A stretch of DNA of 61,010 bases from a virus: the IMG/VR virus record IMGVR_UViG_3300024327_000006, positions 1 to 61,010 of that record; one strand, written 5' to 3'. The position numbers were made by a program, and so were the translations under genes. The notes beneath the pieces were generated by a model. It worked only from the letters and a program-made list of their open reading frames with translations, had not been told where the DNA came from and did no database searches. Positions 14,373-57,414 of the stretch are shown here, one piece after another. Position 1 is the first letter of the stretch, and every line of letters starts with the position of its first letter.

Positions 14373-14773
14373 CCATATATCTCCTTTAAACGATCCATAG
14401 TTGTGACCTCGTTCTCTCCTAAGATCTCTAATTTCTTGCCTTTATCCTCCAGTCGAGGAAGTAGCTCGTCAGTACGAGCGTTCCACATAAGTACTAGATC
14501 TTTATCGTGATGATTAGCTCTGCTTATATTTAATTGCTTACAAATACGTTTGAAATCTACAGGTGAAAACTCGCTGTACACTTTACCTAATACAGCACTA
14601 GGTCGCCCTACTTGTTTAGCCTTAGATAGGACTCGTCCACATTTCTGCGAGCATGATTTTTGACCGTGCTGTATACGATACATGATTGCCGTAAATTCTT
14701 CATTACAAACAGGGCATTCATATATAGCGGTAGCGGAAGTAGGATCTGGATTTCGCAATAATTTAGGGCGCAT
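14369..14773 (-). CDS. Zinc-finger DNA-binding-type protein of unknown role
   Basis: A protein of 134 residues. The cysteine set C19-P-V-C22 and C40-x3-C44 (YECPVCNEEF, KSCSQKCGR) suggests a zinc finger typical of phage HNH-like or regulator proteins, but no nuclease HNH residues are seen. The start is directly downstream of a control element at 14771-14792. The stop overlaps the excisionase-like start by 4 bases. Confidence 0.65.
   Translation of the reverse strand: MRPKLLRNPDPTSATAIYECPVCNEEFTAIMYRIQHGQKSCSQKCGRVLSKAKQVGRPSAVLGKVYSEFSPVDFKRICKQLNISRANHHDKDLVLMWNARTDELLPRLEDKGKKLEILGENEVTTMDRLKEIYG
14512..14530 (-). promoter_or_regulatory. Control element copy inside a coding region
   Basis: Reads AATATAAGCAGAGCTAATC on the - strand, inside the zinc-finger gene (codons for NISRAN). 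It matches the recurrent TATAAGC-nnn-GCTAAT element, and its place within a gene fits a roadblock-type site better than a promoter. Confidence 0.45.
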
Positions 14774-14978
14774 TATTACCTCTGCTTATATAATCTTGTA
14801 AATAAAAGATCGCTTTGTTAATGTCTTCCATCTCTTTTTCAGGGTTTTTTCTACCTGCTCTGGCAATATACTTCACTGCATTGCCTAGATCATAGCCTAA
14901 ATCCCATTCGTTAATTACATCAATAACCTCATACTTGGAGAAAGTATAATGACTAGGATGATTTACTGGGTCATTCAT
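14763..14978 (-). CDS. DUF3310 family protein
   Basis: A protein of 71 residues. It matches the DUF3310 pattern (NHPSHYTFSKYEVIDVI, then LGNAVKYIARAGRK and DINKAIFYLQDYI), common in phages and of unproven function, sometimes named a nucleotide kinase. It overlaps the repressor stop by 4 bases and runs 11 bases into the next gene. Confidence 0.85.
   Translation of the reverse strand: MNDPVNHPSHYTFSKYEVIDVINEWDLGYDLGNAVKYIARAGRKNPEKEMEDINKAIFYLQDYISRGNNAP
14771..14799 (-). promoter_or_regulatory. Promoter with overlapping control element
   Basis: On the - strand, TTTACA is followed after 18 bases by TAATAA, a fair sigma-70 pair. The spacer contains ATATAAGCAGAGG of the recurrent element. The -10 box runs into the ATG of the gene at 14773, so it would yield an almost leaderless message for that gene or serve the excisionase and integrase genes. 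Confidence 0.5.
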
Positions 14979-15601
14979 AGTTTAGCTCGTTGAACAGCGA
15001 TGATAGGGTGGATTGCTACAATGTCATCATGTGCTATTACTGAAGAGTATTCTGTCAGAATGTTCTCAACTGCATACCCTTGTGCGACCTCGCGAACATA
15101 AGTTTTGATTATATACTCAGAGTCTATAGTCTCAATTAATACCTCATCGCCCGGTGTAATGTCAGCTGCGGGGTCTACTACTACATATTCTCCTTGTTTG
15201 ATACGTGGATGGTAACTCTGCTCATCTATTAGCACTGCGTATACTTGATCGCTAGTTTCGCCAATATACTTAGCCTCTATGTGTCTATTTAATACTGCTC
15301 CTGTTGAACTCCTTACCACTGGTATACTCCTCTTATATATTTGTTTTATCCTTAATTTACGACCTAAGACCGGACGAATGTCTTTAGGCGCACACTGAAG
15401 TAGTTTTGCAAAGACTAGCACCGCATCAGTGTTAAGTGCAATGGTGCCATTTAGATACTGGCTAATAGCACTCTGACTCGTACCTATTTCATCAGCTACT
15501 GTTACTTGTGTTAATTTAAGCTCCTGTTTTTTAGCCTCCCATATGGCTCGGAGTCTTTTCGCAGCATCCCTGTCTGCGTCTGTGATAATGCGTTGTGTCA
15601 T
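14975..15601 (-). CDS. LexA/CI-like repressor (HTH_XRE plus S24 domain)
   Basis: A protein of 208 residues. An XRE helix-turn-helix is at about residues 28-58 (TQVTVADEIGTSQSAISQYL). The C-terminal S24-type dimer domain has S129 (EQSYHPRIKQGEYVVVDP) and K166 (EYIIKTYV), matching the Ser-Lys pair of self-cleaving repressors. A clear Ala-Gly cleavage site is not evident. It is the only repressor candidate. Unusually, it lies at the far end of the leftward block with no divergent cro-like gene. It is the likely reader of the dispersed near-palindromic elements. Confidence 0.85.
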   Translation of the reverse strand: MTQRIITDADRDAAKRLRAIWEAKKQELKLTQVTVADEIGTSQSAISQYLNGTIALNTDAVLVFAKLLQCAPKDIRPVLGRKLRIKQIYKRSIPVVRSSTGAVLNRHIEAKYIGETSDQVYAVLIDEQSYHPRIKQGEYVVVDPAADITPGDEVLIETIDSEYIIKTYVREVAQGYAVENILTEYSSVIAHDDIVAIHPIIAVQRAKL

Positions 15602-16005
15602 GGTGGTTGACCTTTAGTTGTTAAGCTACATATCCATGCAGCTAGTTCATTCTGTTTAATAATGCTGTTATTAAACGCCTCAGTGGGGATTCCTTCAACC
15701 CACTCTGGGTATTTAAAAATACATCCGCCTTCTTTGCTCCCAACTATACAATAAACTTGGCGACCAAAGCTATGTTCTTTGGCTAACCACTTTAACTGTT
15801 GTGGGCGGAGCGCAGGTTTGATGATCGTTCCTGCTCGTTTAGGGATCTGTTTTAGATACTTATATTCAATCCATATGTCAGCTTTCGGACCTGAATAATA
15901 AGCATCGGGCACACCACCACGATAGTTGTCGTTTATCTTCCAGACTGTCAGCCCTTTCTTGGGTAAATGTCTGTGTACTGAACGGATGAATCCATGCTCG
16001 TCCAT
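15598..16005 (-). CDS. VRR-NUC-like PD-(D/E)XK nuclease
   Basis: A protein of 135 residues. The nuclease core is GGVPDAYYSG...ADIWIEYKYL with D34, E47 and K49, in the order and spacing of VRR-NUC/resolvase-like folds. It probably cuts branched DNA during replication or recombination. It overlaps the repressor start by 4 bases. A defence or anti-host role cannot be excluded. Confidence 0.75.
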   Translation of the reverse strand: MDEHGFIRSVHRHLPKKGLTVWKINDNYRGGVPDAYYSGPKADIWIEYKYLKQIPKRAGTIIKPALRPQQLKWLAKEHSFGRQVYCIVGSKEGGCIFKYPEWVEGIPTEAFNNSIIKQNELAAWICSLTTKGQPP

Positions 16006-16008
16006 GAG

Positions 16009-16185
16009 TTACCTTTGATGTCTGATTTCTAATCCATCCGAGATGTTATAGTCTCGGTCACATTGATAGCACCGGTAGATATTCTTAGAATACAACCGTA
16101 GCATAGGATTCCCACAGTGACAGACGTTATCTGCACGGCGGGGTTCTTCAATAGGGCGGATCCATCGGTCTAGCCATTTAAGCAT
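16009..16185 (-). CDS. 58-residue zinc-ribbon microprotein
   Basis: Starts at ATG 16185, overlapping the TAA of the upstream gene by one base (TAATG), and ends 3 bases before the nuclease gene. The product has NVCHCGNP and CYQCDRDY cysteine pairs, a small zinc ribbon. Coupled spacing on both sides supports a real gene. Function is unknown. Confidence 0.65.
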   Translation of the reverse strand: MLKWLDRWIRPIEEPRRADNVCHCGNPMLRLYSKNIYRCYQCDRDYNISDGLEIRHQR

Positions 16186-16349
16186 TACTTTTCCTCTATA
16201 ACGTCAGTAACATATTCGTTTGCAAAATTTATAAATTCTTCGGTATCAGCAGCGTCCAAATAGTTCTCTTCTGCTTCCTCCGCATTTTCAGCTTCAATTT
16301 CATAGCGAGTAGTGCAAATACTCGATGTTAGAATTGTGTATTTAGTCAT
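16185..16349 (-). CDS. 54-residue acidic microprotein
   Basis: Begins MTKYTILTSSICTTRYEI, with a GAGGAGGACGATG ribosome site embedded in the end of the upstream gene. This start is preferred to longer upstream ones. The rest is strongly acidic (EAENAEEAEENYLDAADTEE). It resembles in layout the gene at 16695-16883 (short beta start, then acidic). Function is unknown. Confidence 0.6.
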   Translation of the reverse strand: MTKYTILTSSICTTRYEIEAENAEEAEENYLDAADTEEFINFANEYVTDVIEEK

Positions 16350-16518
16350 CGTCCTCCTCCGATATAGTAAGGTAATCATCGTCATTGGTAGGGGTAGTAG
16401 TAATAGTTTCAGTCCCACATTCTCTACAGACAAAGGGTACACCCCCATGTTTTACATCATGCTCATCGTGGATTGTTCCACCTCCACAGGTGTTGCAGAA
16501 TCTCCAGTCCTCACTCAT
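16342..16518 (-). CDS. 58-residue zinc-ribbon microprotein
   Basis: ATG 16518 overlaps the stop of the upstream gene. The product has CNTCGGG and CRECGTE pairs about 20 residues apart, then a threonine-rich and very acidic tail (SEEDDD). A classic two-CxxC zinc ribbon. The coding region ends in an SD-like GAGGAGGACG used by the next gene. Function is unknown. Confidence 0.65.
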   Translation of the reverse strand: MSEDWRFCNTCGGGTIHDEHDVKHGGVPFVCRECGTETITTTPTNDDDYLTISEEDDD

Positions 16519-17622: not shown

Positions 17623-17635
17623 ATTTTTCTCCTTC

Positions 17636-17661: not shown

Positions 17662-17674
17662 TAAGAGGTGGTGG

Positions 17675-18420: not shown

Positions 18421-18439
18421 TATTAGCACTGCTTATATT
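18421..18439 (-). promoter_or_regulatory. Control element upstream of the SSB-like gene
   Basis: Reads AATATAAGCAGTGCTAATA on the - strand, 18 bases upstream of the start at 18403. One of the best matches to the consensus. Confidence 0.55.
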
Positions 18440-21448: not shown

Positions 21449-23895
21449 TTGTATGCTTCCTTATCTCGATCTGAGAAGTGTTCGTTGATTAAAGGGGTGC
21501 GTTCGTAGGTATCAAGTTTCCAGTCAACAACAAGTCCTCGGCCTTTCCCCCGCCTATTAATGGTAATTATTCCGTTACGGGCTAATAATTTTCCGAATTT
21601 CACAGCTGATATAGTTGCGTCGTTTAGACAGGTATATACCGTTCTTAGCTGGGCTACAGTAACGAACGATTTTCGTTGATCTACGTCAGCGATCCAGCTT
21701 TTAATAAAACGTTGTGCTGCTTCGAAAGTGGTGATTTCGTTTATAGCTGTAGGTTCCATATCAACGAATTTTACGAAGAAGTCTAAGTTCCCTGTTCTGA
21801 TAGCGAAGCTATATTCTTCTATCCACGTCATGCTCGCTTCGCGCATTTGTAGCTTCGCTTCGTTCTCTAAAGGAGTACGTGCTTGGTCTTCGTTTTCATT
21901 ATAGGTGGTCAGAAAATTAGTGAATATCTGTAATTCTTTCGGTAGTAAGTCATCTATTTCCTGCCTGATTTTAGGGTGTGCGCGGATTAACGAGAGTTCT
22001 TGATGTATACCTATATTAAAGCGTCGATCTGTAGCCGATAGTTTTAATGCGTCTTGGTTGTTCGTGTAGAACATAACGTTGTTGTATAAGGGTTTATCCA
22101 CTAAGCTATCAACGCGCATCACGCGTACTTTGCCGTAAGGCTCAGTGATAAAATTCTTTAGGAAATTCATCGTACGTGAGGATGAGGCTACGTCGTTTAT
22201 ACGCGCTTCATCTACTACAGTGATTAAGTTAGTCTCTTGCCACGCATTAAACTGATCGTCAAAATCAGATAGTTTTCGCATGACCGAGTAGCGGTTCCCA
22301 ATTAAGGGCACTAATACTTTATGGTAGAACACTCCTTTACCTGTACCTTCTACTCCGCTGAAGACCCATGCGGTTGTAGTTTTACAACGACGTTTTACAC
22401 CATAGGCTAGCCAGTTTATGAAGTGTTCATATTCTAAGGAGCTGTCACCGACCAGATGCCATATTATTTTATATATAGTGGGGCAGTAATTTTGTAGTAA
22501 TGTAGCGTCCCCATAAGTCAGTTCTATATCCTCAAGAGGTTTAGCATTAAGTAGATATTCTGTGGGTTGGTACTTGTTTAACCATTGCCGTTGGAAATCT
22601 ATCTGGTTATCAGTCGAAGGGTCGAATACATAGTCCCATGTTGGGATAGGTTCGGGCATAGCCAAACCGTGTTCTAACATGAAGTCGCCTAGATTGGATT
22701 TATTAGCTGAAGCGATGCGAGGGATGTTGTTACTGTTCTCATCGAACACTGCGTTGTAATGTACGTCAGTCCAGAAATCTCTAAAGATGAAAGGGCGTAG
22801 GTTTGCAGCACCGCGTATTTCATCTTTAAATTCTTCAGTGTACCATTCGTGGAAATCAGCATCTACTCGCTGCATTTCAAATGGGGGCTCGTCTTTAAAT
22901 GTGTAGACGATACGAGGGTTGCCTATCGGACACCAATACGCGTTACTGTCACCATTATTAATATTGAAGTAGCAGTATTCTATAGTGTGGTAGGCGTAAG
23001 TAATACGTGCTTGATCTGGGTTCTCTAAGACTTCGGTTTTATGCCCATCCTCTAAGGTAACATATCTAGTTTTGGGAGTGCGTCGTTTCAGTCCCGCTGA
23101 TTTACGTAAGGCGATGACTGTATCTTTAATCGCTTGAGTATTAGCTTCGACATTTACCTGCTTCAATAATACTGAGATATCTACTGTAGGGTTATCTTTT
23201 TTAACTAAGACGATACGTTCTTCTACAGGGTCAAACAAAGGAGGTATAAATGTAGGGGGTGCACAATATATCAGTTTATCGTTTTGGGCTAATGTCCTAT
23301 CAATGGGATAGGATAAACTGAGCCCTGAAGTATTAAGAGATACCTGAGTACTAAAGTCTTCGATGTTTAGATTTAACCAAGTGATCCAATCTTTTAATCG
23401 CATTGGATTTACTTCTGCGGATAAGTAGAAATCTAAATGCATGCAGATTAGGTTTTGTTTAAGTCCTAACGAAGCTGATGCTGTGGCTATGTATGAGGAG
23501 TTAGAGAATACAGGGGGTAAGAGTTTTACGATTCGTTCGGCAATATCTTTAATATCAGTACTGCTTATGTTTTCAGGTATCGTGTATCCTTCAAGTTCAA
23601 GTCCGTCGATATCTAAGACTAAGGTTTGTGTTTTTTGGTAGCGATCTGTGTGTCCTTTACGGGGTTCGTTAACCAAGGGTCTGTCGAGCTGTCCTTTAAG
23701 CAAGCAATGCCCTAAAGGAGCGTGTTTTTTCATTAGTTGGTATTGGGTATCCCACCCTACATTGGTAGCGGGGATGTCATGTATGTGAGAAGTAAATTTG
23801 TTCACGTACATGGGGTAAGATTGCTTACCTTGTTTCGAGAATTCTTTTGATAGGCGCGTTCTGTTAGCTGCCTCTAAGAATGTGATTTTCGGCAT
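21418..23895 (-). CDS. Primase-helicase (AEP-type primase plus SF3/D5-like ATPase)
   Basis: A protein of 825 residues. The N-terminal third has AEP-like signatures: TLVLDIDGLEL (catalytic acids) and CMHLDFYLS. The C-terminal half is a DUF5906/P4-type ATPase: Walker A GVEGTGKG near residue 515, VVDEARIND, then MFYTNNQDALKLSATDRRF with the sensor Asn and arginine finger. It probably primes and unwinds at the phage origin. Preceded by a control element at 23911-23927. Confidence 0.85.
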   Translation of the reverse strand: MPKITFLEAANRTRLSKEFSKQGKQSYPMYVNKFTSHIHDIPATNVGWDTQYQLMKKHAPLGHCLLKGQLDRPLVNEPRKGHTDRYQKTQTLVLDIDGLELEGYTIPENISSTDIKDIAERIVKLLPPVFSNSSYIATASASLGLKQNLICMHLDFYLSAEVNPMRLKDWITWLNLNIEDFSTQVSLNTSGLSLSYPIDRTLAQNDKLIYCAPPTFIPPLFDPVEERIVLVKKDNPTVDISVLLKQVNVEANTQAIKDTVIALRKSAGLKRRTPKTRYVTLEDGHKTEVLENPDQARITYAYHTIEYCYFNINNGDSNAYWCPIGNPRIVYTFKDEPPFEMQRVDADFHEWYTEEFKDEIRGAANLRPFIFRDFWTDVHYNAVFDENSNNIPRIASANKSNLGDFMLEHGLAMPEPIPTWDYVFDPSTDNQIDFQRQWLNKYQPTEYLLNAKPLEDIELTYGDATLLQNYCPTIYKIIWHLVGDSSLEYEHFINWLAYGVKRRCKTTTAWVFSGVEGTGKGVFYHKVLVPLIGNRYSVMRKLSDFDDQFNAWQETNLITVVDEARINDVASSSRTMNFLKNFITEPYGKVRVMRVDSLVDKPLYNNVMFYTNNQDALKLSATDRRFNIGIHQELSLIRAHPKIRQEIDDLLPKELQIFTNFLTTYNENEDQARTPLENEAKLQMREASMTWIEEYSFAIRTGNLDFFVKFVDMEPTAINEITTFEAAQRFIKSWIADVDQRKSFVTVAQLRTVYTCLNDATISAVKFGKLLARNGIITINRRGKGRGLVVDWKLDTYERTPLINEHFSDRDKEAYKCQNEPQQTH
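23551..23570 (-). promoter_or_regulatory. Control element copy inside the primase gene
   Basis: ACATAAGCAGTACTGATATT on the - strand, inside coding sequence and about 340 bases after the primase start. A weaker match to the consensus. Confidence 0.35.
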
Positions 23896-23910: not shown

Positions 23911-23927
23911 TATAAGTACTGCTTATA
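23911..23927 (-). promoter_or_regulatory. Control element upstream of the primase-helicase
   Basis: TATAAGCAGTACTTATA on the - strand is an almost perfect palindrome, 16 bases before the primase start, in the 60-base gap after the polymerase-side gene. Confidence 0.55.
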
Positions 23928-28998: not shown

Positions 28999-29030
28999 CA
29001 TAAGTATTGCTAATATTAATACCGCTTACT
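28999..29030 (-). promoter_or_regulatory. Two overlapping control elements
   Basis: Read on the + strand, 28999-29017 is CATAAGTATTGCTAATATT. On the - strand, 29012-29030 is AGTAAGCGGTATTAATATT. The two copies face each other and share 6 bases, the only such double site seen. Confidence 0.5.
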
Positions 29031-29034: not shown

Positions 29035-29107
29035 ATTCCATAACCCCTCCCTTGGCTATGGAATATCAGCTCTGTTTATATTTAGTGATATAGGCAGAGC
29101 TTTTTTT
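29035..29107. other. Two hairpins, one terminator-like on the + strand
   Basis: ATTCCATA (29035-29042) pairs with TATGGAAT (29057-29064). AGCTCTG (29068-29074) pairs with CAGAGCT (29095-29101), followed by seven T on the + strand (29101-29107). The T-run makes sense only for rightward transcription, against all genes here. Confidence 0.5.
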
Positions 29108-29288: not shown

Positions 29289-30319
29289 TAAATCACCAGA
29301 TGTTTATGTTTAGCTGCCCAAGCAATATAGCTTGAGGTTTGAGTTAGTTCAGGTTTGTTAATGAACAAGTCACGCGTCATAGTGACAGCGAAATCTTGTT
29401 GGTGGTTGATTGAAGCTAATTGTTCTGCAATATCACAGAATCCTTGTATAGTAGCTCGGGTTACGTAGGTTGTAAGCGCGTTAGCTATAGCGTACATAAC
29501 TGAACGGTCTTCCGGCGGTTTGAAGCTCCACGGTTCTGCTAATAGTTTCTCCATGTCGGGGAGTTCTGTACGTAAGTGTACTTCGAGTTCTTTAGCAGGA
29601 CCTGCTCCGACAGTTCCTTTTAGTGCTTGTAGGCGTAGGTGTTTAGGGACAGTCCTGAGGATTTGAGAAGCGAAATCCCATGTGCGTGGTGATGGGAACG
29701 CATTCTCGCTTGTGATACCCTCAGGCATTTCGTGTATGTGGTGGGGCGCGGCGCGTAGAAACGATAAGATTCTGGAATCTCGGTCGTTCCTCACCCACCA
29801 ACTCGCTAAGTCATCACGGTCTACTTCTAAATCACAATGCATAAACCTATTCTTCAAAGCTAGTTCCATTTCTTGTGCACCGGAGCGATCTTCAACGCGG
29901 TTTCCTGCTGCGACAATAACTGTGTCTTCAGGGAATTTATGTTGTCCTATTTGTCGGTCTAGGATGATCTGAAAGGCAGATTTGCGTACTGCAGGTGGAG
30001 CATGGGTGATTTCATCGAAGAACATCAGGGTTTTTTTGTCGCCTTCTTTAGGGTACATAAGTGGCGTACCCCAAGCAGTTCGTTTTTCAGAATCTTCGAC
30101 GACTACAAAAGGTACGCCCTGCATGTCTTCGGGACCCATCTGAGATAGGCGTATGTCTAGAAAGCGATAGTCGTATTCTTCTGCTAGCTGCTTAATGATC
30201 TGTGATTTCCCGATGCCAGGTGCGCCCCATACCATTGCTGATAGACGGGATTCGCCGGGCTTCAAGGTCACGTTTATAAGCGAGGCTTTTAAGAGCTCGG
30301 TTAGTTCGCTGGGTTTCAT
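29288..30319 (-). CDS. MoxR-like AAA+ ATPase
   Basis: A protein of 343 residues. Walker A is GAPGIGKS (32-39), Walker B LMFFDEITHAPP, sensor 1 VAAGNRVED, then MELALKNRFMH with the arginine finger region. This is the MoxR/RavA type of AAA+. It sits two genes from a VWA metallopeptidase-like protein, its usual partner. GGAAGGAGTAACCACC precedes the start. It is likely a remodelling chaperone; the target is unknown. Confidence 0.9.
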   Translation of the reverse strand: MKPSELTELLKASLINVTLKPGESRLSAMVWGAPGIGKSQIIKQLAEEYDYRFLDIRLSQMGPEDMQGVPFVVVEDSEKRTAWGTPLMYPKEGDKKTLMFFDEITHAPPAVRKSAFQIILDRQIGQHKFPEDTVIVAAGNRVEDRSGAQEMELALKNRFMHCDLEVDRDDLASWWVRNDRDSRILSFLRAAPHHIHEMPEGITSENAFPSPRTWDFASQILRTVPKHLRLQALKGTVGAGPAKELEVHLRTELPDMEKLLAEPWSFKPPEDRSVMYAIANALTTYVTRATIQGFCDIAEQLASINHQQDFAVTMTRDLFINKPELTQTSSYIAWAAKHKHLVI

Positions 30320-30907: not shown

Positions 30908-31261
30908 CTATACGAACAGAGGATCTAAATTCTCATCTATTATCTCAACGAACATCGACACGCCTACTCCGAAACGTTCCTCATCACCGAGTATTTCGAT
31001 ATCAGCCTCATAACCATCGCCTTCACCTACGCGTATGAAACAGTAGGTGTTTTCTGGGATAGTAGAGAACCATTTCTCAGCTTCTGGAACTTCTGGATAG
31101 CTTTGATACCATTTAACTCCACGGTATGTGTACCGTATTGTCGAATCAGGTTGAACTTCACGGCTATAAGGCCATTTTTCGGCGTTCGATATTCCTAGGA
31201 ATTTAAATTCATATTCTTTTTCGGGGGTCATGCATATGACTATATCGCTACGATAACCCAT
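30908..31261 (-). CDS. Conserved-type early protein (MGYRSD start)
   Basis: A protein of 117 residues from ATG 31261, within an AAGGAATGCTTATG context. MGYRSDIVICM is an opening seen in many small phage proteins of unknown function. The rest is acidic with several Trp and Tyr. A control element copy covers its start (31259-31277). Confidence 0.65.
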   Translation of the reverse strand: MGYRSDIVICMTPEKEYEFKFLGISNAEKWPYSREVQPDSTIRYTYRGVKWYQSYPEVPEAEKWFSTIPENTYCFIRVGEGDGYEADIEILGDEERFGVGVSMFVEIIDENLDPLFV

Positions 31262-31445
31262 AAGCATTCCTTATATTTTTGAGCTCTTTAACGCGAGCTT
31301 GGGACACAGTTTCTCGTCCTCTTAGAACGCGATCTGCGATCTTCAAGGCGTAAACATCTAAGACTTCTTGGCTTATAGAGTCTCGATGTAATTTGGTTTT
31401 TAGATAGAGTATGTCTTCTTCGAAAGTACTTAGTTCCTCATTCAT
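31248..31445 (-). CDS. 65-residue early protein
   Basis: ATG 31445 follows AGGAGGACGT, which decides against the longer frame. Helical (STFEEDILYLKTKLHRDSIS). It overlaps the next gene by 14 bases. Unknown. Confidence 0.6.
   Translation of the reverse strand: MNEELSTFEEDILYLKTKLHRDSISQEVLDVYALKIADRVLRGRETVSQARVKELKNIRNAYGLS
31259..31277 (-). promoter_or_regulatory. Control element at a gene start
   Basis: AATATAAGGAATGCTTATG on the - strand, two changes from the consensus. It includes the start codon of the gene at 31261. Could be chance. Confidence 0.35.
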
Positions 31446-31832: not shown

Positions 31833-32057
31833 CTAAAAATGAATTTTGGCTAAATGCTGTATAGTTTCATTATTAATCCCTATATTCGCATCATGGTCTT
31901 TAATAAGCAATGCTAATATATACATTGCTTGCTCATTTGTCAGTTTGTTATCAGTAGCGTCGTGTACATCAGTTATATCCCATATATCAGCTACTGCCAT
32001 GCCTGTTATGATGTTCTCTCTATAACTTTGTACGTCTTGCCAATCAGCTAGGCTCAT
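31833..32057 (-). CDS. 'ADIW' family early protein, paralogue of 17106-17384
   Basis: A protein of 74 residues (MSLADWQDVQSYRENIITG, then VADIWDITDVH and GINNETI). A shorter relative of the product at 17106-17384, lacking the middle loop. It lies between the two LLSK paralogues. Function is unknown. Confidence 0.7.
   Translation of the reverse strand: MSLADWQDVQSYRENIITGMAVADIWDITDVHDATDNKLTNEQAMYILALLIKDHDANIGINNETIQHLAKIHF
31911..31929 (+). promoter_or_regulatory. Control element copy inside a coding region
   Basis: TAATAAGCAATGCTAATAT on the + strand, inside the ADIW gene. Orientation is opposite to the gene. Confidence 0.35.
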
Positions 32058-32883: not shown

Positions 32884-32898
32884 GTGGTCGGAGACCAC
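32884..32898 (-). repeat. Leader hairpin GTGGTC-TCC-GACCAC, copy 1
   Basis: A perfect 6-bp stem starting at the RNA polymerase stop codon. Identical copies lie at 34640-34654 and 36017-36031, all in short gaps on the leftward message. Candidate RNase III or stability sites. Confidence 0.7.
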
Positions 32899-34604
32899 TA
32901 AGAAATCGCATATTTGCTAGCAAGTATGTCGATGTGTAAATCATCGCTGTCTTTAGCAATGCTTATATTCTTACCGCTGATTTCCGATAAGATGTCAGCC
33001 AGCAAATCGCTCTGTGCGATGTCAGCTAGGATCTCACGGTATATACGTGAGGCTTCGTCCATATTATCTGGGTAGAAGTAGAAACAGTCGAAAATATGCA
33101 CAATGTCGAACGGACAACGCCTTACCATCTCACGGGCAACGTAGGCATCGACCGAATGAATAATGTTAGGCACTAAGGACGTTGACTTACGTGATGGCAT
33201 ATTCTTTTTGTAGATATAAGCGAAGCGACGGTGATTCAGCTCATCTACTTCAACACGTTTGTCTACTGTTTCGATGACAGGGACAACTGAGCGGTGCCCG
33301 TCAGGGAGAGTCCAACTGTGCTCAAGTGTCCGCTTATTCCAGAAGGCGTTGATCGTATCCATAACGTCTACAGCACCGGGGCAGAGCCCATCCAATGCAT
33401 TGTAGAACGCCTGTAGCTGTGCATCGTTGAACGCTTTACGTGGTTCTTTGATACTATTGTAATAGTGAGTCATTACAGGGTCTTTCACCATGTCACGGTC
33501 TACGTAGTCGGCGGGTGATAGCGTCTTGTTCATTGTATCTGCGATCATCTGAGCCAACTCATCATTCATCGTATCAGCCACGAGTGTATAGAGATCCTCT
33601 CGTGTGCCTGAATAGATCAAGTTGCAGGCTTTCGCTGTGATCTTACAGCCAATTAATGCCGCCATGATCTGTAAGCCCGAGGCTGTAGCATCTAACCCCA
33701 TCATGTAATTACTGGGCAGTCCCTGTTCTGCTAGAGCATAAGCTCGTAATGCTTTGCGTCCTAGTATGGGGTATTTGAATTCTTCGGTATTGAAGCCTTT
33801 CTCAAGCTGTGCATCGAACCAGGCTATACGCTCTTCGAACAGGAGCTTATCGTGCCCTGCTTCGTTAGCCACGGCTATCTTGAGATTGTTGAGGTTTTTA
33901 GTTATTACCTTTTTACGAGGTGATAACAGAGCCTTGTCATACTCATGACTTTGAAAGTTTAAGAAATAACTGTGGATGAATCCACGCCCGCGCATGTCGT
34001 AACGCCATTTGAAGTAGAAGCCACGACCTATTAAGTCGTTATATATAGCATTGAAATCTTCGCGGGTTCTCTGGGAGTGGTGCTTAGCCTTAGGGTTCTT
34101 CTCATAACGTAGAACCTCGGTATCTATACACCATTCTATATCCTGCAGGATATTAAGCACGTCATACGACTGTGCTTGATTGTGATGTTTCATCCCACCA
34201 CCTAATATAATAGAGTCTTCACCGTTATGGTTACTACTCCATTTGTTAGGTTTGAAGGTGGGGAAGTTAGATTTTATTAACGCTTCCTTAGGTAAGTTAG
34301 GTAGCACATAGGTGCCATAACGGGTCATATCAAGCGTGTACCATCCTTGATGTTGACAGATGGCTAATAGTTCAGCGCCAGTTTTAACTGCGTCGAGCTG
34401 ATCCGTGTAGCCGAGGCTAGTACCTAGGCGTGTGGCTACGTTCTGTATTGCAGTTTTGTCCTGCTGGGTGCGGCAGAGTGCCGTCCATAGCTTAGCCGAG
34501 ATGGCTAGCGGGGTTAGCTGACGCTCTTTCAACTTAGCTATACGGAGCGCTTTGCTCTCATAGCTGTATTGCTTATTTAGATACTCTAATATCTGAGCTT
34601 CCAT
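32898..34604 (-). CDS. Compact T7-like single-subunit RNA polymerase
   Basis: A protein of 568 residues from ATG 34604 (GGAGTACATCATC upstream). T7-type motifs: motif A MMGLDATASGLQ with D305; motif B K374-x7-Y382 (KDPVMTHYY), equal to the T7 K631/Y639 spacing; motif C HIFDCFYFYP with D506. The histidine of the usual HDSF is replaced by F505. T7 RNA polymerase has 883 residues, so most of the N-terminal domain, which contacts promoters and RNA, is reduced. It should transcribe phage genes, perhaps with a partner. Confidence 0.9.
   Translation of the reverse strand: MEAQILEYLNKQYSYESKALRIAKLKERQLTPLAISAKLWTALCRTQQDKTAIQNVATRLGTSLGYTDQLDAVKTGAELLAICQHQGWYTLDMTRYGTYVLPNLPKEALIKSNFPTFKPNKWSSNHNGEDSIILGGGMKHHNQAQSYDVLNILQDIEWCIDTEVLRYEKNPKAKHHSQRTREDFNAIYNDLIGRGFYFKWRYDMRGRGFIHSYFLNFQSHEYDKALLSPRKKVITKNLNNLKIAVANEAGHDKLLFEERIAWFDAQLEKGFNTEEFKYPILGRKALRAYALAEQGLPSNYMMGLDATASGLQIMAALIGCKITAKACNLIYSGTREDLYTLVADTMNDELAQMIADTMNKTLSPADYVDRDMVKDPVMTHYYNSIKEPRKAFNDAQLQAFYNALDGLCPGAVDVMDTINAFWNKRTLEHSWTLPDGHRSVVPVIETVDKRVEVDELNHRRFAYIYKKNMPSRKSTSLVPNIIHSVDAYVAREMVRRCPFDIVHIFDCFYFYPDNMDEASRIYREILADIAQSDLLADILSEISGKNISIAKDSDDLHIDILASKYAIS
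32952..32969 (-). promoter_or_regulatory. Control element copy inside the RNA polymerase gene
   Basis: AATATAAGCATTGCTAAA on the - strand, near the 3' end of the polymerase gene (codons for NISIAK), about 120 bases before the next gene. It could act on 32413-32832. Confidence 0.4.
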
Positions 34605-34639
34605 GATGATGTACTCCAATTTAATTGATTAATCACATA

Positions 34640-35141: not shown

Positions 35142-35330
35142 TTACGATTCGGGGTGGTTTGCATCGTCGAATGGTGCGTGGCTGTTCGGTAACTCAGTTT
35201 GCTGAGGTCCATTGACCTCATCCCACAGCGCAGCTACGCCTGAGTAGGGGTATTCAGCCATGAGCTCTGCTTTGCTCATGTGGCGGGCTTGGTCTTCGAT
35301 GTGCTCTAAGAAACGTTTAGTATTTGACAT
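35142..35330 (-). CDS. 62-residue early protein
   Basis: AAAAGGAGTACTAACC precedes ATG 35330 (MSNTKRFLEHIEDQARHMS). The longer frame would read through a terminator hairpin. Acidic, no family recognised. Confidence 0.6.
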   Translation of the reverse strand: MSNTKRFLEHIEDQARHMSKAELMAEYPYSGVAALWDEVNGPQQTELPNSHAPFDDANHPES

Positions 35331-35351
35331 GGTTAGTACTCCTTTTAGATA

Positions 35352-35382
35352 CAAAAAAGCCCACACACCGGAGTGTGCAGGC
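35352..35382 (-). terminator. Rho-independent terminator
   Basis: On the - strand GCCTGCACAC-TCCG-GTGTGTGGGC (two G-T pairs) then TTTTTT. It follows a control element by a few bases, an arrangement in which a transcript begun at the element would stop at once. Confidence 0.8.
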
Positions 35383-35387
35383 ATGAT

Positions 35388-35406
35388 TATTAGCTATGCT
35401 TATAAT
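35388..35406 (-). promoter_or_regulatory. Control element beside a terminator
   Basis: ATTATAAGCATAGCTAATA on the - strand, overlapping the stop of the gene at 35400-35537 and directly before the terminator. Confidence 0.5.
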
Positions 35407-37791: not shown

Positions 37792-38004
37792 GATGTATCT
37801 CCTTTTATGCCTTAATTGACCCTCGTTCTCACTTCGCCCAAAACGAGGTACGAGTTTTGGAATCGGGGATGCCAAAAAGCAAATCGGGGACGGCGGTACG
37901 GAAATACTGAACATCCATATATATGAAGACACACGGTTATTACTGAATTTTTTTGCTAAATTTTTCAATATAAGCTATGCTTATGCCCAAATCATAGGAG
38001 AAAT
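37792..38004. promoter_or_regulatory. Divergent control region between early and late blocks
   Basis: A 213-base gap between divergent genes. On the + strand, TTGCTA (37953-37958), 17 bases, then TATGCT (37976-37981) forms a sigma-70-like promoter for terminase, and the control element ATATAAGCTATGCTTATG (37968-37985) covers its -10 box. CCAAAAC/GTTTTGG pairs near 37840-37860. The leftward promoter must also be here but is not clear by eye. Confidence 0.55.
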
Positions 38005-40880: not shown

Positions 40881-41717
40881 ATGGCAGAAACGATCCATGA
40901 CAGGTATATCAAGAATGGTTGGTATAACAGTAGTCTGCGGAATATAGATGAGGCGCTAGCACCTTCGTGGCGGGATTCAGCTGAAGCACGACCCGAGGAT
41001 AGGTCGCTAATCGAGCAGCACCGTAATGCCATCCAAAACAATCCTCGTATGAACGGGGACGGCTCCATTTCAACAGTATACATACACGGGGTTTCGGGTC
41101 CTGATGGACGTATATACAATGTGCCCGGATACGACTACGAGACCGGAGAATTTATAGAAGAAGCTGACTTATACGACTATTGGGATAAGAAGGGCCGGAT
41201 AAAAGATTTCAACTCCTTCGCACCAGACGAGGGGCAGCTCGCCAATGAGCAAGCACAACGTATCCATTCTGAATGGATCGAGCCTGATATGCAGGCTTAC
41301 GGGTTTAATGAGAACGAAAACCATAAGCTAGCGAACGCCGCTATAAAACGAGGGATCGGAGATGCTACTGGAGAACCCATACAGAATATGACCCCAGCCG
41401 ATGCCGCAAAGAATTACGCAGGTGCTGCAGACTGGTCGAGTCGTGTGCGTAACAGCATGCCTGAATGGCTGCCTCGAGGTACTCGGACTGGATTAGCCTC
41501 AGGTATAAGTAACGCTATGGCCCATGTGTACCAGCTATACGACTTCGGAAAGGATATAGCCCCCATGGGGTTAGGTGCTGCATTTGATGACTACCTCTTC
41601 GATATTGGTGGAAATGTGGATGGGATACGAGGTGGGTTACAAGGTAAAGATCCTCATGTAAGAACACCGGATGAGCTCGTACGAGAAGGGTTAGGTTATG
41701 GATATAAGCAACGCTAA
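40881..41717 (+). CDS. Unknown 278-residue head-region protein
   Basis: Begins MAETIHDRYIKNGWYNSSLR. It contains WLPRGTRTGLASGISNAM and resembles the previous protein in composition. Its stop lies in the control element at 41702-41724. No family is recognised; a virion-associated protein is likely. Confidence 0.6.
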   Translation: MAETIHDRYIKNGWYNSSLRNIDEALAPSWRDSAEARPEDRSLIEQHRNAIQNNPRMNGDGSISTVYIHGVSGPDGRIYNVPGYDYETGEFIEEADLYDYWDKKGRIKDFNSFAPDEGQLANEQAQRIHSEWIEPDMQAYGFNENENHKLANAAIKRGIGDATGEPIQNMTPADAAKNYAGAADWSSRVRNSMPEWLPRGTRTGLASGISNAMAHVYQLYDFGKDIAPMGLGAAFDDYLFDIGGNVDGIRGGLQGKDPHVRTPDELVREGLGYGYKQR

Positions 41718-41724
41718 TATTAAA
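41691..41724 (+). promoter_or_regulatory. Possible promoter with control element before portal genes
   Basis: ATATAAGCAACGCTAATATT at 41702-41721. TTAGGT at 41691, 18 bases, then TAATAT at 41715-41720 makes a weak sigma-70 pair with the same geometry as at 44846. Confidence 0.5.
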
Positions 41725-43989: not shown

Positions 43990-44841
43990 ATGGCACAACC
44001 CGGAGAAGACGTAGTAGTAGAAGAAGCCGTAGAAGATCGCGGTGATACCGTAGCTGAGGTAGAAGAAGAGCCTACCCCCGAGCCAGAACCCACTCCAGAA
44101 CCTGAAGTCGTAGCCGAAGCAGAGCCCGAACCCGAACCCGTAAAGGAGGAAAAGCCGGATGATATTCAGATTCCTAAGCAACGCCTTGATGCAGAGATTG
44201 CCCGTCGTAAACAGTTGGAAGAGACACTTCAACGCATGCAACAGCAGACTAAGCAGGAAGAGGTTAAAGCTCCCGAATATGATTTTGACGGTAAGGAGAA
44301 GGAATACCTACAAGCTATGTGGGCGGGAGAAGAGGATAAAGCCCTGTCATTACGTCAAGAGATGAGGGCCGCAGAAGCAGAGCAACACCGTTTTACAGCT
44401 GAACAGCTAGCATCGACTTCGACCACACAGGCTGAGGCTAATGTACGGTTCAACCAGACTGTCGCTCAGATTACTACTGAGAACCCGTTGTATAACCCAG
44501 AGCATGAGAACTATAACAAAACAGTTACAGATTACACCTTAGGGCTACGGGATAAGTTTATGGCGGCGGGGGACGATCCCTCTTCGGCGTTAGTTGAGGC
44601 ATATAACATTACTAAAGCCCAGTATCCTGAGCTGTTCGCCCCAAAGCAGGCTACTCCCGCTGTTAGCAATGCGAATATTCAGGAGAAGTTATCAGCGGCT
44701 AATAGACAGCCCCCGGCGTTAGGTGGGGATAGCGGGGTTTCTCGGGGAGAGAGTGTGCTGGACGTAAACACACTATCGCAAGAGGAGTTCGACGCATTAC
44801 CTGCCGCCACATTACAGCGCTTACGCGGAGATATACTGTAA
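43990..44841 (+). CDS. Scaffolding protein
   Basis: A protein of 283 residues. The first 55 residues are acidic Pro-Glu repeats (EPTPEPEPTPEPEVVAEAEP), then a helical middle (RKQLEETLQRMQQQTKQEE) and a C-terminal helix (LSQEEFDALPAATLQRLRG). This composition and the place between portal and capsid are those of podovirus scaffolds. Confidence 0.8.
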   Translation: MAQPGEDVVVEEAVEDRGDTVAEVEEEPTPEPEPTPEPEVVAEAEPEPEPVKEEKPDDIQIPKQRLDAEIARRKQLEETLQRMQQQTKQEEVKAPEYDFDGKEKEYLQAMWAGEEDKALSLRQEMRAAEAEQHRFTAEQLASTSTTQAEANVRFNQTVAQITTENPLYNPEHENYNKTVTDYTLGLRDKFMAAGDDPSSALVEAYNITKAQYPELFAPKQATPAVSNANIQEKLSAANRQPPALGGDSGVSRGESVLDVNTLSQEEFDALPAATLQRLRGDIL

Positions 44842-44845: not shown

Positions 44846-44876
44846 TTGACTTCATTATATAAGCAGTGGTAATATT
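44846..44876 (+). promoter_or_regulatory. Capsid promoter with overlapping control element
   Basis: TTGACT (44846-44851), 18 bases, TAATAT (44870-44875): a good sigma-70 promoter. The element ATATAAGCAGTGGTAATATT (44857-44876) covers the spacer and -10 box. CTGCTT/AAGCAG also pair across the spacer. Confidence 0.65.
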
Positions 44877-53300: not shown

Positions 53301-56300
53301 TAAATACTACAGACCAAGCCCGCAAAGATGCGGCTTTGAGTAGCTGGGATAACTTAGGTTATGGGCAGGATCTTGTAACCCGTGCGGAGTATACGCGCGA
53401 AGCAGCGAAGCGACTAGCAGACTTAGGACCTCATAGACCCGGAGAGGTTGACCAAAAAGCTGAATCCCAGTATGGCACAGCTGATGAAGATGTAGTCATA
53501 TCGTCACGAGCGGTTGTAGGTCGTCAGAAATTACCAGACGAATCTCATCCGTCTTACGCGCTGAAGAAACATATAAACGACTTGCTAGACGCGGCACAGT
53601 CATTCGCGCCGCAGTACGTATTCCATCCCGAAACAGGTAAAAATGAACGGGTAAGCGATGGGAATCCTGTATTACAAGAAACCCATATGCACCTTGCAAC
53701 AATGGCTACGCAGATGCTTACCTTAGACAAGGTAACTCAGCAAGAACTGAACATTGCTAATAACGATGTGAAGGTACGGCAGATACGAGCTCTTCAAGAG
53801 CAGATCGGTGAGATAGCAGCTAAACCGAATCATATGAGGTCGCCAGAAGAGAGCGATGCCCTCCCCGGTCTCGAGAGAAAATTGAGCGAACTAGAACGAG
53901 GCTATCGTGCAGAATTAGCAGTCAAAACATCCAACGATATAGCTGAGGTGCATAAGTATACTATGGCATTACGTAAAGAATCGACTGCTCTCCGGGAGGA
54001 GGCGAATGACGAGAATCTACAAGATGCAGAGGAACAAATTGCCTTAAACGAAGAAGCTACTCGCCTAGCAGACGAGTCTTTAAAACTCGACCAACACGCC
54101 ACTAAGTTAGCTAACTGGCTCAATGTCCAACGAGAAAACGCGGCGTTCGGTAGAGGAGTCGAAGATTACGTCACGGGCGACAAGTCTATATTAGATACTG
54201 TAGATAACGATACTGAAGTGTCACAGTCCGACCATAAGTTTGAACGCCAATGGCGCGATCTTATCCTCTCAGGATTTAAGAATCGAGGCCACAAAGCAGA
54301 TCCTAATAGTACAGTAAGTCAGGGTAGTTCTTGGCAATCAGTGCTTTCGAGTGTTGGCGGAAAAATGTTAGGTCAGCACGTTAAAGCGGTAGGTAAAACA
54401 GCGAAACTGTTAGGGCCTACTGTAGTGCAACTACTTAAAGCGACGAACTCTAAGTTCAACGTCATGCTGATTGACAACGACGGCTTACAGGATATAGTCG
54501 ACCAGAGTGAACTGGCACTCCCTGACGATCTGTCAACTGTCCTAAATGCTAAACAACTAGAGTTGGTTCGTTCAGATAGAGGCGAGGCATGGCTTAATAT
54601 TCAGAAAGAACTTAATAAGATACAGGGTGAAAACGCAAAAAATAAGAAAGTCAGGACTAATGCGAGAGCTAAAAAAGTCGAGCTTCTGCGCCAACTAAGA
54701 GCTCTCTCAGAATACAAAGAGATGCAGGCGGTAGGACGCATCCTTAAACAGAATGCGAAGCTGCGTAACCCGTTGGTCGATGAAGATGTTCTAGCTGATA
54801 TGACTAGTCGGTTAGCACAAAAAAATAAGATGGGGACTACTTGGTATTTTAAAGACCATGCCGTTATCTATATAAATAACAAGTGGGATGCCCCCGTACA
54901 GATGATTACTTTAGGGCATGAGTTTGGGCATGCGTTTATGCGTAATGCTCTTCATAAAGCCCCGAAAGAAGTACAAGATGCTCTATATAAAGCCTATGAA
55001 ACAGAGATGGGTTCTTGGGATAAGCCTTATGCTTACCGAGAATGGTTCGCTGACCAGATGAGTGCTTGGGCAGCTTCAGGTAATCTTGACAGTATGCAGG
55101 GATTACATAGTCTCCTCGCAGAATCTACAGATACGAAGCAATCCTTAGCTAAGAAAGTGAAGCAGTTATTCACTGAGATCAAAGCAGGATTAAAAGCGGC
55201 TTATGAGCGGATGCATAAGAATAAGTCGAGACGGTTTGAGCAGAACCAAACATTCTCTGAATATATGCAGGGTGTTACCTCTAAACGTTATTCGCCCGGC
55301 TATGGCTTTGAACAGCCCTCAGCCTATGAACGAGACTCTGTATCTATAACTGAAGAAGATACATCTACAACGAATCCTACAGAAGAAGAGTTGGACTCGT
55401 TTACTGAACGACTACGTGAAACGTTATTGAATGCAGTAACTCCGCAATTACGCGACCAAGCACGGGTTCGAATCAATGCGATTCTCTCAGGTTCTAGGAA
55501 AGTTCTGTACCCATTGTTATCGGCGGATCAACAGCTTCGGTTATGGGGAGCTGACGCTATTGCTGATAAGCTATGGCTACGTCCACAAACAACTAGTGCT
55601 ATTCAACGCCCCTGGTTAGTCGCAGTTGCTCAGCTTGATCGGCAGTGGGGCGGAGCGTATGAGACAGTGCTCAAATCTATACCGCCGGGGCTGAAAGACC
55701 AGATACTGAGTGAAGTTCAAAATGAGCAGTTAACCGACGCAGAAGTGCATCCTAAGACTGTCGAACTACGCAAAGTCCATCGTAAATTCACTGAATATCT
55801 AGGGTCCACCGTACCGTTCTTCGAGAGCGTAACTAACCATTTCCCTCGAATGTATAATAACCCTAAGATAGAGCAGGAAGGACAAGCGTTTAATGAATTC
55901 TTGATGCAGTATGATTTCGTAGAGAATGAGACTCATGCTGACTATTTTCGAAATGCTATATTACGAGATCAGACTTCATTAGATCCAAATGTAGTACATG
56001 CACCTTCGGGTAACACCGTTCGTAAACGAGGCAAGTTAATGCAGATCCCTAATGCGGATCTTCTCGAAGGCGGATGGCTACATCCTGACCCCGAGTTTGT
56101 ACTTATGAACTCAGTTCGTAAGTCGATCAGACATGCAGAGTTCGGTAGGTTGTTTGGCGAGATTGTCGACAACGGGCGAGATGAGCCTTATTTCGATGCC
56201 GCTAAGAAACTCAACGATCAGATTGCCACAATCCCTGATGCAACAGCACGTAACCGTGTTAAGACCGTGATGCAGGGAATCTTAGGACAGCGGGGTATAG

Positions 56301-57385
56301 ATATGGATCCGCAGTTGCGTAAATACCAGAATAATATTATGGCGGCGGAAAACTGGATGGTCTTACTCTTTACCGCAGTAGCCTCTATACCTGAGTTAGC
56401 AGGGCCTATCTTACGCGCTAAAGATGTTCAGGGTGCATCAGCTGCTCTTCATCAGTACGCACGTACCGTAAAGAACCGCAAAGAGGCTTATCAGCGATAC
56501 CGGGCTATGGGCTTCTTAGAAGATACCTTAGCGAACCATGCAATGCTGGAAGTGTATGGGTTAGATACCGCGCCATCATGGGCACAAACAGCCAATAAGA
56601 ATTTGTTCTTATATAACGGACAGAAATGGTTCACGGATATGTCCCGCGTGATGTCAGCGTCTATTGCTGAGGATTTCATTATCAGGCATGGCATAACTGA
56701 GCAGAATGAGAACAGCACCCAGTTCTTAGAAGAGCTCAAACTAACTCCAGATTTAGTAAAACAATGGGATAAGTTAGGTCGTCCGGTATGGAATCGTGCA
56801 GAGGATATGAGCATGGACTTAGAGCAAGATCCGAATACGGCGTTATTAGCCCAGCGAGTTCAAGACGCTATTGGGATCTTTGTGGATCAATCAGTAGTAA
56901 ATCCGAATAACGCAATGCGTCCGGTGTTCATGTCCGATCCTAGATTTGGCTTACTAACCCATCTCAAAACATTCTTCTATGCATACCAACATACGGTGCT
57001 CGAAGGTATCTGGAATAATGTTAAACAACAAGACGGCTTACCTGCTAAGTCAGTACCTATAGCTTTAGCTGCATTTTTCATGCTGCCACTAGCAGGCTTA
57101 GCTCTAGAACTTCGAGAACTCCTCAAATACTGGGGTCAAAAAGACCCAACAGCGAACCAAGGCATGGGGGACTATACTTATAATGTCATGCGTAGAGCGG
57201 GAAGTTTTGGCACTTTAGAGTTAGGGCTTTCGGCTATGGACGCACAGGGTTGGAACGGAAAAACGTCAACTCGATTAATGGGGCCAACAGCTGGAAAACT
57301 TGATGATCTCTTCAGCGGTAGAAACTATGCAGGCTTTGTTCCTATCTATGGGCAGATCCCTGCAGCACAACATTTATTCGATTGA
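50309..57385 (+). CDS. Giant ejection/polyvalent virion protein with zinc-peptidase motif
   Basis: A protein of 2358 residues. It begins with two copies of a short motif (GMSLEDINKELATYG, GMSLAEINAELERLQ). Hydrophobic stretches follow at about residues 155-170 and 250-310 (NMIPMVAGGIIGAALRG, AAALLAGVPGAAVDVLGVAG), then long charged helices. A zincin-like HEFGHAF lies at residues 1537-1543. The end holds a further hydrophobic stretch (PIALAAFFMLPLAGLALE). Very large multi-domain proteins in this place are injected into the host with the DNA. Confidence 0.8.
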   Translation: MRAVSGMSLEDINKELATYGEIESVEAPPEKIKEFIKRQGEIGANVDIEGMSLAEINAELERLQPSSKPPQQSHPLSPGQRALHRGYENAVSNVGSAVEAVGEVTGLESVAEWGHDVSAEHESLATKYPTEVGSIDDVLDDPTKAGTYIYESILENIPNMIPMVAGGIIGAALRGPKYLEASYKTVSKVIDKVPKKYHDEIRKAFDFDIHPSKTGLGSKKAAIKNYDPKKLLDQLSPEAKTALAKGLKRNARVIGGAIGATTTSYPLMVGEYYKDQIREGVAPDKAGAAALLAGVPGAAVDVLGVAGGLKQLLKVAHKNPKTVMETIATVAKGVGITAGVEGFTEDIQSIISFLAIKANKSDYDIFSPENAQRLKEDFFKGAAAGGGMAFGGSAPIAATQYGAHKVGQGVDWAAKKIGESHQKVVDASNEIGNFTEQLNTHRDDANTDHTAYGDTIKSFVDKVKEAYSDSPKSFNEFNDALKDSLEKGAEALGKASTPEGRKAALDEMSAKATEAYSKVQKLREAAVEYSSLKTKEEKEAFVKKQSKAEDMPSFGFDEEGNNKILKDKFDAIAGEITAVAVSEAVNNSTSKVMGTTWRAFDVFESGGFEMSIPEVLIIGQNEIHEDRGKPYAAWSGQDKIEALEEEQLQLSYKAVTEGTKDRKAEIETELRDLKEKRGKTSGALDAKLMALRKEFPDHTIGLEVAEELRDSQGELVKDHKGDPIPASHYLSVYPTDSNNFQGVRFGEVALLRKAQVSGNKKANSLEDRDAEIVTVDGKNYDTIELVRLGMLKLAQERGQKMPILQPSAADVYEALIQSLEIIIRRNPEKYGDKGIEHEDLLGRDLSNWDNRRIWNYKTKAGDRTVDSMVSHVNEETGVSTESKRRSTTVASAREAFFKKTVYLQASELRNETETALHAKLRDKEVNKDERGDAAIELSQRYTAEREKLYFKMYRDIEEGQSLDPDDKITMMFLEEQLEKLSEVQDVNTDPEITEQVDLNTTDQARKDAALSSWDNLGYGQDLVTRAEYTREAAKRLADLGPHRPGEVDQKAESQYGTADEDVVISSRAVVGRQKLPDESHPSYALKKHINDLLDAAQSFAPQYVFHPETGKNERVSDGNPVLQETHMHLATMATQMLTLDKVTQQELNIANNDVKVRQIRALQEQIGEIAAKPNHMRSPEESDALPGLERKLSELERGYRAELAVKTSNDIAEVHKYTMALRKESTALREEANDENLQDAEEQIALNEEATRLADESLKLDQHATKLANWLNVQRENAAFGRGVEDYVTGDKSILDTVDNDTEVSQSDHKFERQWRDLILSGFKNRGHKADPNSTVSQGSSWQSVLSSVGGKMLGQHVKAVGKTAKLLGPTVVQLLKATNSKFNVMLIDNDGLQDIVDQSELALPDDLSTVLNAKQLELVRSDRGEAWLNIQKELNKIQGENAKNKKVRTNARAKKVELLRQLRALSEYKEMQAVGRILKQNAKLRNPLVDEDVLADMTSRLAQKNKMGTTWYFKDHAVIYINNKWDAPVQMITLGHEFGHAFMRNALHKAPKEVQDALYKAYETEMGSWDKPYAYREWFADQMSAWAASGNLDSMQGLHSLLAESTDTKQSLAKKVKQLFTEIKAGLKAAYERMHKNKSRRFEQNQTFSEYMQGVTSKRYSPGYGFEQPSAYERDSVSITEEDTSTTNPTEEELDSFTERLRETLLNAVTPQLRDQARVRINAILSGSRKVLYPLLSADQQLRLWGADAIADKLWLRPQTTSAIQRPWLVAVAQLDRQWGGAYETVLKSIPPGLKDQILSEVQNEQLTDAEVHPKTVELRKVHRKFTEYLGSTVPFFESVTNHFPRMYNNPKIEQEGQAFNEFLMQYDFVENETHADYFRNAILRDQTSLDPNVVHAPSGNTVRKRGKLMQIPNADLLEGGWLHPDPEFVLMNSVRKSIRHAEFGRLFGEIVDNGRDEPYFDAAKKLNDQIATIPDATARNRVKTVMQGILGQRGIDMDPQLRKYQNNIMAAENWMVLLFTAVASIPELAGPILRAKDVQGASAALHQYARTVKNRKEAYQRYRAMGFLEDTLANHAMLEVYGLDTAPSWAQTANKNLFLYNGQKWFTDMSRVMSASIAEDFIIRHGITEQNENSTQFLEELKLTPDLVKQWDKLGRPVWNRAEDMSMDLEQDPNTALLAQRVQDAIGIFVDQSVVNPNNAMRPVFMSDPRFGLLTHLKTFFYAYQHTVLEGIWNNVKQQDGLPAKSVPIALAAFFMLPLAGLALELRELLKYWGQKDPTANQGMGDYTYNVMRRAGSFGTLELGLSAMDAQGWNGKTSTRLMGPTAGKLDDLFSGRNYAGFVPIYGQIPAAQHLFD

Positions 57386-57414
57386 TTTCCCCAATAAAAT
57401 AAGCTATGCTTATA
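57382..57414 (+). promoter_or_regulatory. Promoter with control element before distal tail genes
   Basis: TTGATT (57382-57387), 17 bases, TATGCT (57405-57410). The element AATAAGCTATGCTTATA (57398-57414) covers the -10 box, with the same geometry as the terminase promoter at 37953-37985. Confidence 0.6.

Follow-up and report, generated by a model that had tools for sequence, protein, structure and literature searches.

Dispersed 17-bp symmetric sites as probable operators of a lambda CI-type repressor in a group of uncultured aquatic podoviruses

Results

We analysed a 61-kb IMG/VR virus record, positions 1 to 61,010 of IMGVR_UViG_3300024327_000006 (the window), in which symmetric 17-bp sites are scattered over the genome. 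Very probably, they are operators of a lambda CI-type repressor that the phage itself encodes (14975..15601, minus strand). We assign the repressor as their reader because the two co-occur among relatives, because its recognition helix covaries with the sites, and because it is homologous to lambda CI. The first-pass annotation of the window had proposed such an operator set for this repressor, and these sequence comparisons favour its proposal.

Enrichment and shape of the sites

The pattern of the first-pass annotation, TATAAGCNNNGCTWATA, was refined to TATWAGY-N3-RCTWATA (TATWAGYNNNRCTWATA). With the refined pattern the window holds 4, 14 and 22 sites at 0, at most 1 and at most 2 mismatches, against 0.0, 0.29 and 4.9 expected from dinucleotide shuffles, and the maximum at one mismatch or fewer was 2 in 100 shuffles. 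The enrichment over shuffled sequence that had been proposed as a check is thus borne out by the 14 strong sites, while about five of the 22 (roughly one fifth) may be spurious by chance. The earlier pattern, at up to 3 mismatches, gave 59 matches in the window against 16.3 +/- 4.7 in shuffled sequence. All of the sites listed in the first-pass annotation exist, most of them within 3 bp of the start given, the one placed at 31911 lying at 31902; those at 6986, 15227 and 29064 (part of a 'double' at 28999), and the weaker ones at 15097 and 30275, had been overlooked. An unbiased dyad search of the window placed ATAAGC-N3-GCTTAT at the top rank. When 70 intergenic sites of 13 genomes were oriented and aligned, positions 1-7 and 11-17 carried high information and values outside were close to background; the site is a two-fold symmetric 17-bp dyad whose information ends at the dyad edges. 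Weak matches at window positions 1578 and 3393 are false and belong to a repeated stretch, GGTTTATATAGAGAAGTTTGTTGA, inside a long tail-fibre gene.

The 7-3-7 geometry would also fit the hairpin promoters of an N4 virion RNA polymerase, which form a 7-bp stem and a 3-nt loop in single-stranded DNA, and an N4-like polymerase is encoded elsewhere in the genome of the window. However, perfectly complementary arms occur in none of the 14 strong window sites, the commonest form carrying an A.A mismatch. Furthermore, the sequence itself is conserved rather than showing compensatory changes in the arms, and the 2358-aa protein showed no match to a virion polymerase. The arm mismatches ruled this explanation out, and we give it practically no credence.

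Co-occurrence of the sites with the repressor

The repressor (208 aa) combines a lambda CI-type N-terminal domain with an S24/LexA-like C-terminal domain (phrog_4, 1.2e-19; PF01381 and PF00717). Its N-terminal domain matched lambda CI (3bdn, E 6.4e-14; 1lmb, 2.1e-11), and the best Foldseek matches were 7jvt, 3bdn and 1lmb, with 3kz3 also found; the AlphaFold model of the C-terminal domain was poor (mean pLDDT 56). The gene sits in the early operon, co-directional with the early genes and flanked by VRR-NUC-like and DUF3310 genes.

Alignment searches with the terminase, primase and capsid yielded more than 200 loci of relatives, and over 2.98 Mb of these loci TATWAGC-N3-GCTWATA had 116 matches, against 4 in a reversed control. 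Co-occurrence was read from long genomes, short site-bearing fragments without the repressor being uninformative. Repressor homologues were found in G001, G004, G012, G013, G014, G015, G016, G018 and G021, all of which have sites. The repressor is absent from the long genomes G019, G022, G023 and G024, from KPP25 and phiA008 and from others, none of which is clearly enriched in sites. Independently of these searches, the helix-turn-helix (HTH) sequence of the repressor alone was used to retrieve 80 loci, and half-site position 4 was left free; the 79 loci analysed held 299 sites, compared with 27 in the reversed control. G014 had been a candidate for a repressor-bearing genome free of sites, which was rejected on finding drifted sites with mixed halves (TATTAGY/TAATACY), 11 against 0 in the control. 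Likewise, the S24 domain (PF00717) was rejected as a marker of the reader protein. Its occurrence in the window and G001 only had at first seemed to count against the repressor, but tblastn and an HTH-only profile turned up homologues whose C-termini are different or degenerate.

It could be argued that the sites are read by another phage or host protein, for instance a Cro-like, partition, replication or host regulatory protein, and that the repressor merely co-occurs with them, given that one backbone is common to all loci and other shared proteins co-occur as well. However, KPP25 and phiA008 share most of the replication and head genes, yet have neither the repressor nor the sites, and the covariation described below follows the recognition helix of the repressor. 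Among the window open reading frames (ORFs) that were scanned, a part of the total, no further HTH protein turned up. Another reader is accordingly an unlikely explanation.

Covariation of the recognition helix and the half-site

The N-terminal domain of the repressor and lambda CI align without gaps over residues 6-83, so that residue n in the window corresponds to lambda residue n+1. In the lambda complex, Gln33 and Gln44 together recognise the adenine of operator position 2. The equivalents of both residues are invariant in seven diverged homologues, and half-site position 2 is here a conserved A. Where the lambda-42 equivalent is Trp, half-site position 4 is T (488 T, 15 A), and where it is Thr, Ile or Val, as in the window, G004 and G012, this position is mostly A (62 A, 29 T). 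Residue 45 alone was rejected as the determinant of base 4, because loci with Ser45 and Trp42 keep T; residue 42, or several residues together, tracks the base better.

Several observations weigh against the repressor as the reader of the sites. For the association between residue 42 and position 4, the Fisher value (7e-47) is inflated, one backbone being common to nearly all loci, and all loci come from one phage family, so that co-occurrence and covariation may reflect one or a few events. The window has no operator immediately upstream of its repressor gene, and no Cro-like gene was detected among the window ORFs scanned. In addition, about half of the strong sites in the window are inside ORFs. 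Finally, G017 (56 kb), with 3-8 sites, is the one long site-rich genome in which no repressor was detected; this genome may be incomplete or its repressor diverged.

Conservation among relatives

The close relatives G001, G002 and G003 share the site set of the window, and long genomes at only ~55% capsid identity have 10-17 sites in corresponding places; across the virus group, the number per genome is 10 to 20. The corresponding places are upstream of terS, primase and the internal virion protein, and between the homologues of the 2358-aa and 125-aa proteins (p2358 and p125). In G004, G012, G013, G015 and G016, a site lies 210-255 bp upstream of the major capsid protein (MCP) gene, and synteny upstream of MCP, primase and p125 is kept at about 50% protein identity. 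Conservation is higher in the arms than in the 60-bp flanks, with values of 97.1/94.9% in G001, 91.6/82.3% in G003 and 95/70% in G004. For the site inside the primase gene, the offset in G004 is exactly that of the window. G012 has a counterpart at offset 358 and, in addition, a site directly 3' of the p2358 homologue.

Placement, orientation and overlap with promoters

The first-pass annotation had placed most sites in short gaps before genes. This description fits the window only in part, since 7 of its 14 strong sites are in non-coding DNA, which makes up 9% of the window, but it is clearer in relatives, in which 12/17, 9/12, 11/13, 7/10, 10/12 and 8/10 sites lie in gaps. The claim that the TATAAGC half is mostly on the transcribed strand holds as a bias rather than a rule: in the window, 8 sites are in the sense and 3 in the antisense orientation, and 11 are neither, while the ratio in G012 is 11:0. 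Of the -35/-10 pairs that had been described, the one at 44858 (TTGACT) is good, those at 14774 and 37969 are passable, and those at 41703 and 57398 are weak when taken alone. Family-wide the overlap is clear. Among 270 distinct site contexts, TTG stands exactly 17 bp upstream of the TAATAT of the downstream half-site 81 times, compared with about 10 at most other offsets, and the secondary peaks (28-40 counts at three offsets) are probably orthologous copies. Of the contexts selected for TTG, 66/95 have TAATAT as the -10 hexamer. This spacing suggests that many sites are promoter and operator in one, and that a dimer bound there would cover the spacer and the -10 box; the bias to an upstream TATAAGC and a downstream GCTAATA would then arise because the sites double as promoter-operators.

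Sites that precede genes with an orientation bias might instead be promoters of a phage polymerase, dispersed as in T7 and N4, and a single-subunit, N4 RNAPII-like RNA polymerase is indeed encoded in the window (32898-34619). However, this polymerase (PF00940) occurs only in G000-G004, whereas sites abound without it in G012, G013, G015, G016 and G018. There is also no asymmetric conservation over a start site, conservation ending at the 17-bp dyad, and many copies are intragenic. Because the polymerase gene is absent from most site-bearing relatives, such promoters were ruled out as a general explanation, and we consider this origin very unlikely. Operators of the CI-type repressor remain the preferred assignment.

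Individual sites in the window

Between the divergent early (minus-strand) and terS (plus-strand) units lies the putative operator TATAAGCTATGCTTATG (37969..37985, no strand assigned), whose arms are identical in G001, G003 and G004, with flanks of 74-100%. On the plus strand, a predicted operator-promoter with TTGACT upstream and -35/-10 boxes, TATAAGCAGTGGTAATA (44858..44874), stands 237 bp upstream of the major capsid gene; further candidates are TATAAGCAACGCTAATA (41703..41719), upstream of the portal unit, and AATAAGCTATGCTTATA (57398..57414), between the 2358-aa virion gene and the 125-aa gene, a junction also occupied in G015, G016 and G018. A weak operator-like site on this strand within a 283-aa gene (44661..44677), with 3 mismatches to the first-pass pattern, may be due to chance. 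Upstream of the virion genes, a candidate with 1 mismatch lies within a 70-aa ORF (6986..7002, no strand assigned; G001 ortholog TATTAGCAGTGATTATA).

The other putative operators lie on the minus strand unless stated otherwise. A perfect match in the early region, TATAAGCATAGCTAATA (35388..35404), is identical in G001 and G003; immediately after it, along the direction of transcription, come a GC-rich inverted repeat and a T run resembling an intrinsic terminator (window 35330-35404). The gap between DNA polymerase and primase holds TATAAGCAGTACTTATA (23911..23927), and the primase 5' gap is occupied in G003, G004, G012, G013, G014, G016 and G018. The internal site CATAAGCAGTACTGATA (23553..23569), at offset 334 nt within the primase-like gene, shows arms of 93% against flanks of 70-75% in G003/G004. 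A further perfect match, TATAAGCAGTGCTAATA (18421..18437), is in the p122/p242 gap, and TATAAGCAGAGCTAATC (14512..14528) is within p134. At the DUF3310/p134 junction, TATAAGCAGAGGTAATA (14774..14790) comes after the repressor gene, and in G015, G016 and G018 the repressor is likewise followed by sites. A pair of sites (28999..29015 and 29064..29080) precedes a 282-aa gene. Operator-like sites were also found at the start of a 119-aa gene (31259..31275) and at the 3' end of the RNA polymerase gene (32951..32967), both identical in G001 and G003; within a 74-aa ORF (31902..31918, no strand assigned); and at the start of a MoxR-like ATPase gene (30275..30291), the last possibly by chance and lost in G003. 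Within the repressor gene there is an operator-like site with lower conservation in G001 (15227..15243) and a weak one with 2 mismatches (15097..15113), which may be a chance occurrence.

The phage and its relatives

In the window, the minus strand carries the early genes (about 13-38 kb) and the plus strand the virion genes. The terminase, portal, capsid, DNA polymerase, helicase and primase-like protein matched homologues in the Pseudomonas phage KPP25 and the Aeromonas phage phiA008 at 30-50% identity, whereas the integrase, the CI/S24 repressor and the single-subunit RNA polymerase of the window are found in neither of them, and both are without the sites. Judged by its genes, the family is KPP25-like for the head and replication, plus a repressor and often an integrase. 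The tyrosine integrase (13198..14184, minus strand; PF00589, 6.8e-29) indicates a temperate phage, and integrase homologues were present at 48/79 repressor loci. We regard these viruses as an undescribed group of uncultured, temperate aquatic podoviruses. The polymerase is 573 aa in one chain, and the matches in N4-like phages are two separate RNAPII subunit genes; it is apparently a fused N4-type RNAPII in a KPP25-like phage. The first-pass annotation had spoken of a podovirus; the gene combination sets the phage apart from plain podoviruses of known kinds. A class 3 lipase-like gene lies amid the virion genes (6218-6982; PF01764, 6e-25).

A search of a phage collection gave no near match to the window, and a scan of genome contigs returned only one short contig of a metagenome-assembled genome (MAG), from which no host could be assigned. 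This type of phage was seen on contigs L255, L307 and L308, binned with a Flavobacteriales MAG (SZUA-1004), a binning that may be wrong and does not identify a host safely.

Proposed mechanism

We infer from these patterns how the repressor would bind, silence the lysogen, block elongation and give way to lysis. A dimer would sit on every 17-bp dyad and place an HTH on either TAWWAGC-like half. In the lysogen, bound repressor would block the sigma70-type promoters that overlap the sites, in which the downstream half, GC-TAATA-T, would provide the -10 box and TTGnnn would stand 17-18 bp upstream. Early and late units across the genome would thus each have an operator of their own, replacing a single OR/OL switch, and intragenic copies may act as road-blocks, decoys or internal promoters.

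In the window and G001, the S24 domain contains candidates for the Ser/Lys dyad, a Ser (QSYHP) and a Lys (YIIK); these residues are replaced in G004 and G012, and no Ala-Gly or Cys-Gly of a RecA-sensitive site was seen. Because these residues are replaced and other C-termini lack an S24 match, RecA dependence may not be family-wide, and induction may be independent of RecA in parts of the family. The repressors of L258, L263, L267, L271 and L274 share one HTH and have different C-terminal domains, S24-like only in the window clade and weakly so in G012, suggesting C-terminal domain swapping within one immunity system. As a broader and still tentative reading, the dimeric lambda-CI-family repressor might be a genome-wide silencer whose symmetric operators, conserved intragenic ones included, block both initiation and elongation; it would then be an independent Gram-negative counterpart of the L5 stoperators, in an undescribed temperate podovirus family that kept one HTH and swapped C-terminal domains.

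Comparison with known systems

Lambdoid repressors act through few clustered symmetric operators, and a dispersed layout is associated with asymmetric sites, as in L5 and P1. The repressor described here resembles lambda CI in its homologous N-terminal domain, in its 17-bp two-fold symmetric operator starting with TAT and, in the window clade, in its S24-type C-terminal domain. Unlike lambda, with six operators clustered in OR/OL, these phages have 10-20 mostly single, dispersed operators; the repressor is in the early operon, no divergent cro was seen among the scanned ORFs, and the C-terminal domains of several relatives are unrelated. A passage in one earlier paper contrasts the few symmetric operators of lambdoid repressors with multiple asymmetric ones (PMC1934351).

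The sites of the L5 repressor are asymmetric 13-mers, bound by a monomer and located in promoters and short gaps (PMC9283540), and L5-type (Cluster A) phages have up to about 30 of them per genome (PMC6550527). As in mycobacteriophage L5, one repressor is matched with many sites across the genome in promoters and short intergenic gaps, with an orientation bias, and the L5-type number (about 20-30) is reached at its low end, with 14 strong sites and 22 at up to 2 mismatches, of which 4.9 are expected by chance. The likeness to L5 drawn in the first-pass annotation does not extend to the sites themselves, which are symmetric lambda-type 17-mers rather than asymmetric monomer sites. In contrast to the monomeric two-domain repressor and strongly oriented 13-mers of L5, the repressor here is of the CI type, many copies are intragenic, and orientation is weaker. 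Phage P1 C1 has 22 dispersed asymmetric 17-bp operators with the consensus ATTGCTCTAATAAATTT (PMC8546580). These are similar in number, length and dispersal, and likewise belong to a Gram-negative phage, but the present consensus is a dyad and differs in sequence.

Other dyads were observed in two further phages. Rhizobium phage RHph_TM3_14A (L019, MN988472) has a different dispersed dyad, GTTACCT-N3/4-AGGTAAC, with a variable spacer, in gaps and genes (44 copies at up to 3 mismatches, against 3 in the reversed control), and the profile found no CI-like homologue in it. Pseudomonas phage Rollin (L020/L315, OR577172) carries AAGGTAGTA-N3-TACTACCTT four times in its first 500 bp, and has a weak HTH match at 55454-55633.

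In the open-access literature searched, we found no description of a lambda-type repressor and site in a dispersed layout. Dispersed-operator control of lysogeny is already known from L5 and P1; what is new is the presence of a lambda-type repressor and a symmetric site in it. With the sites, those members of the family that carry the repressor and are probably temperate can be flagged by sequence alone. The family also provides recognition helices and operators in a natural series on which the CI-DNA code can be tested. Across the family, a homologue of lambda CI appears to work with the dispersed layout, which makes the lambda strategy and that of L5 and P1 directly comparable.

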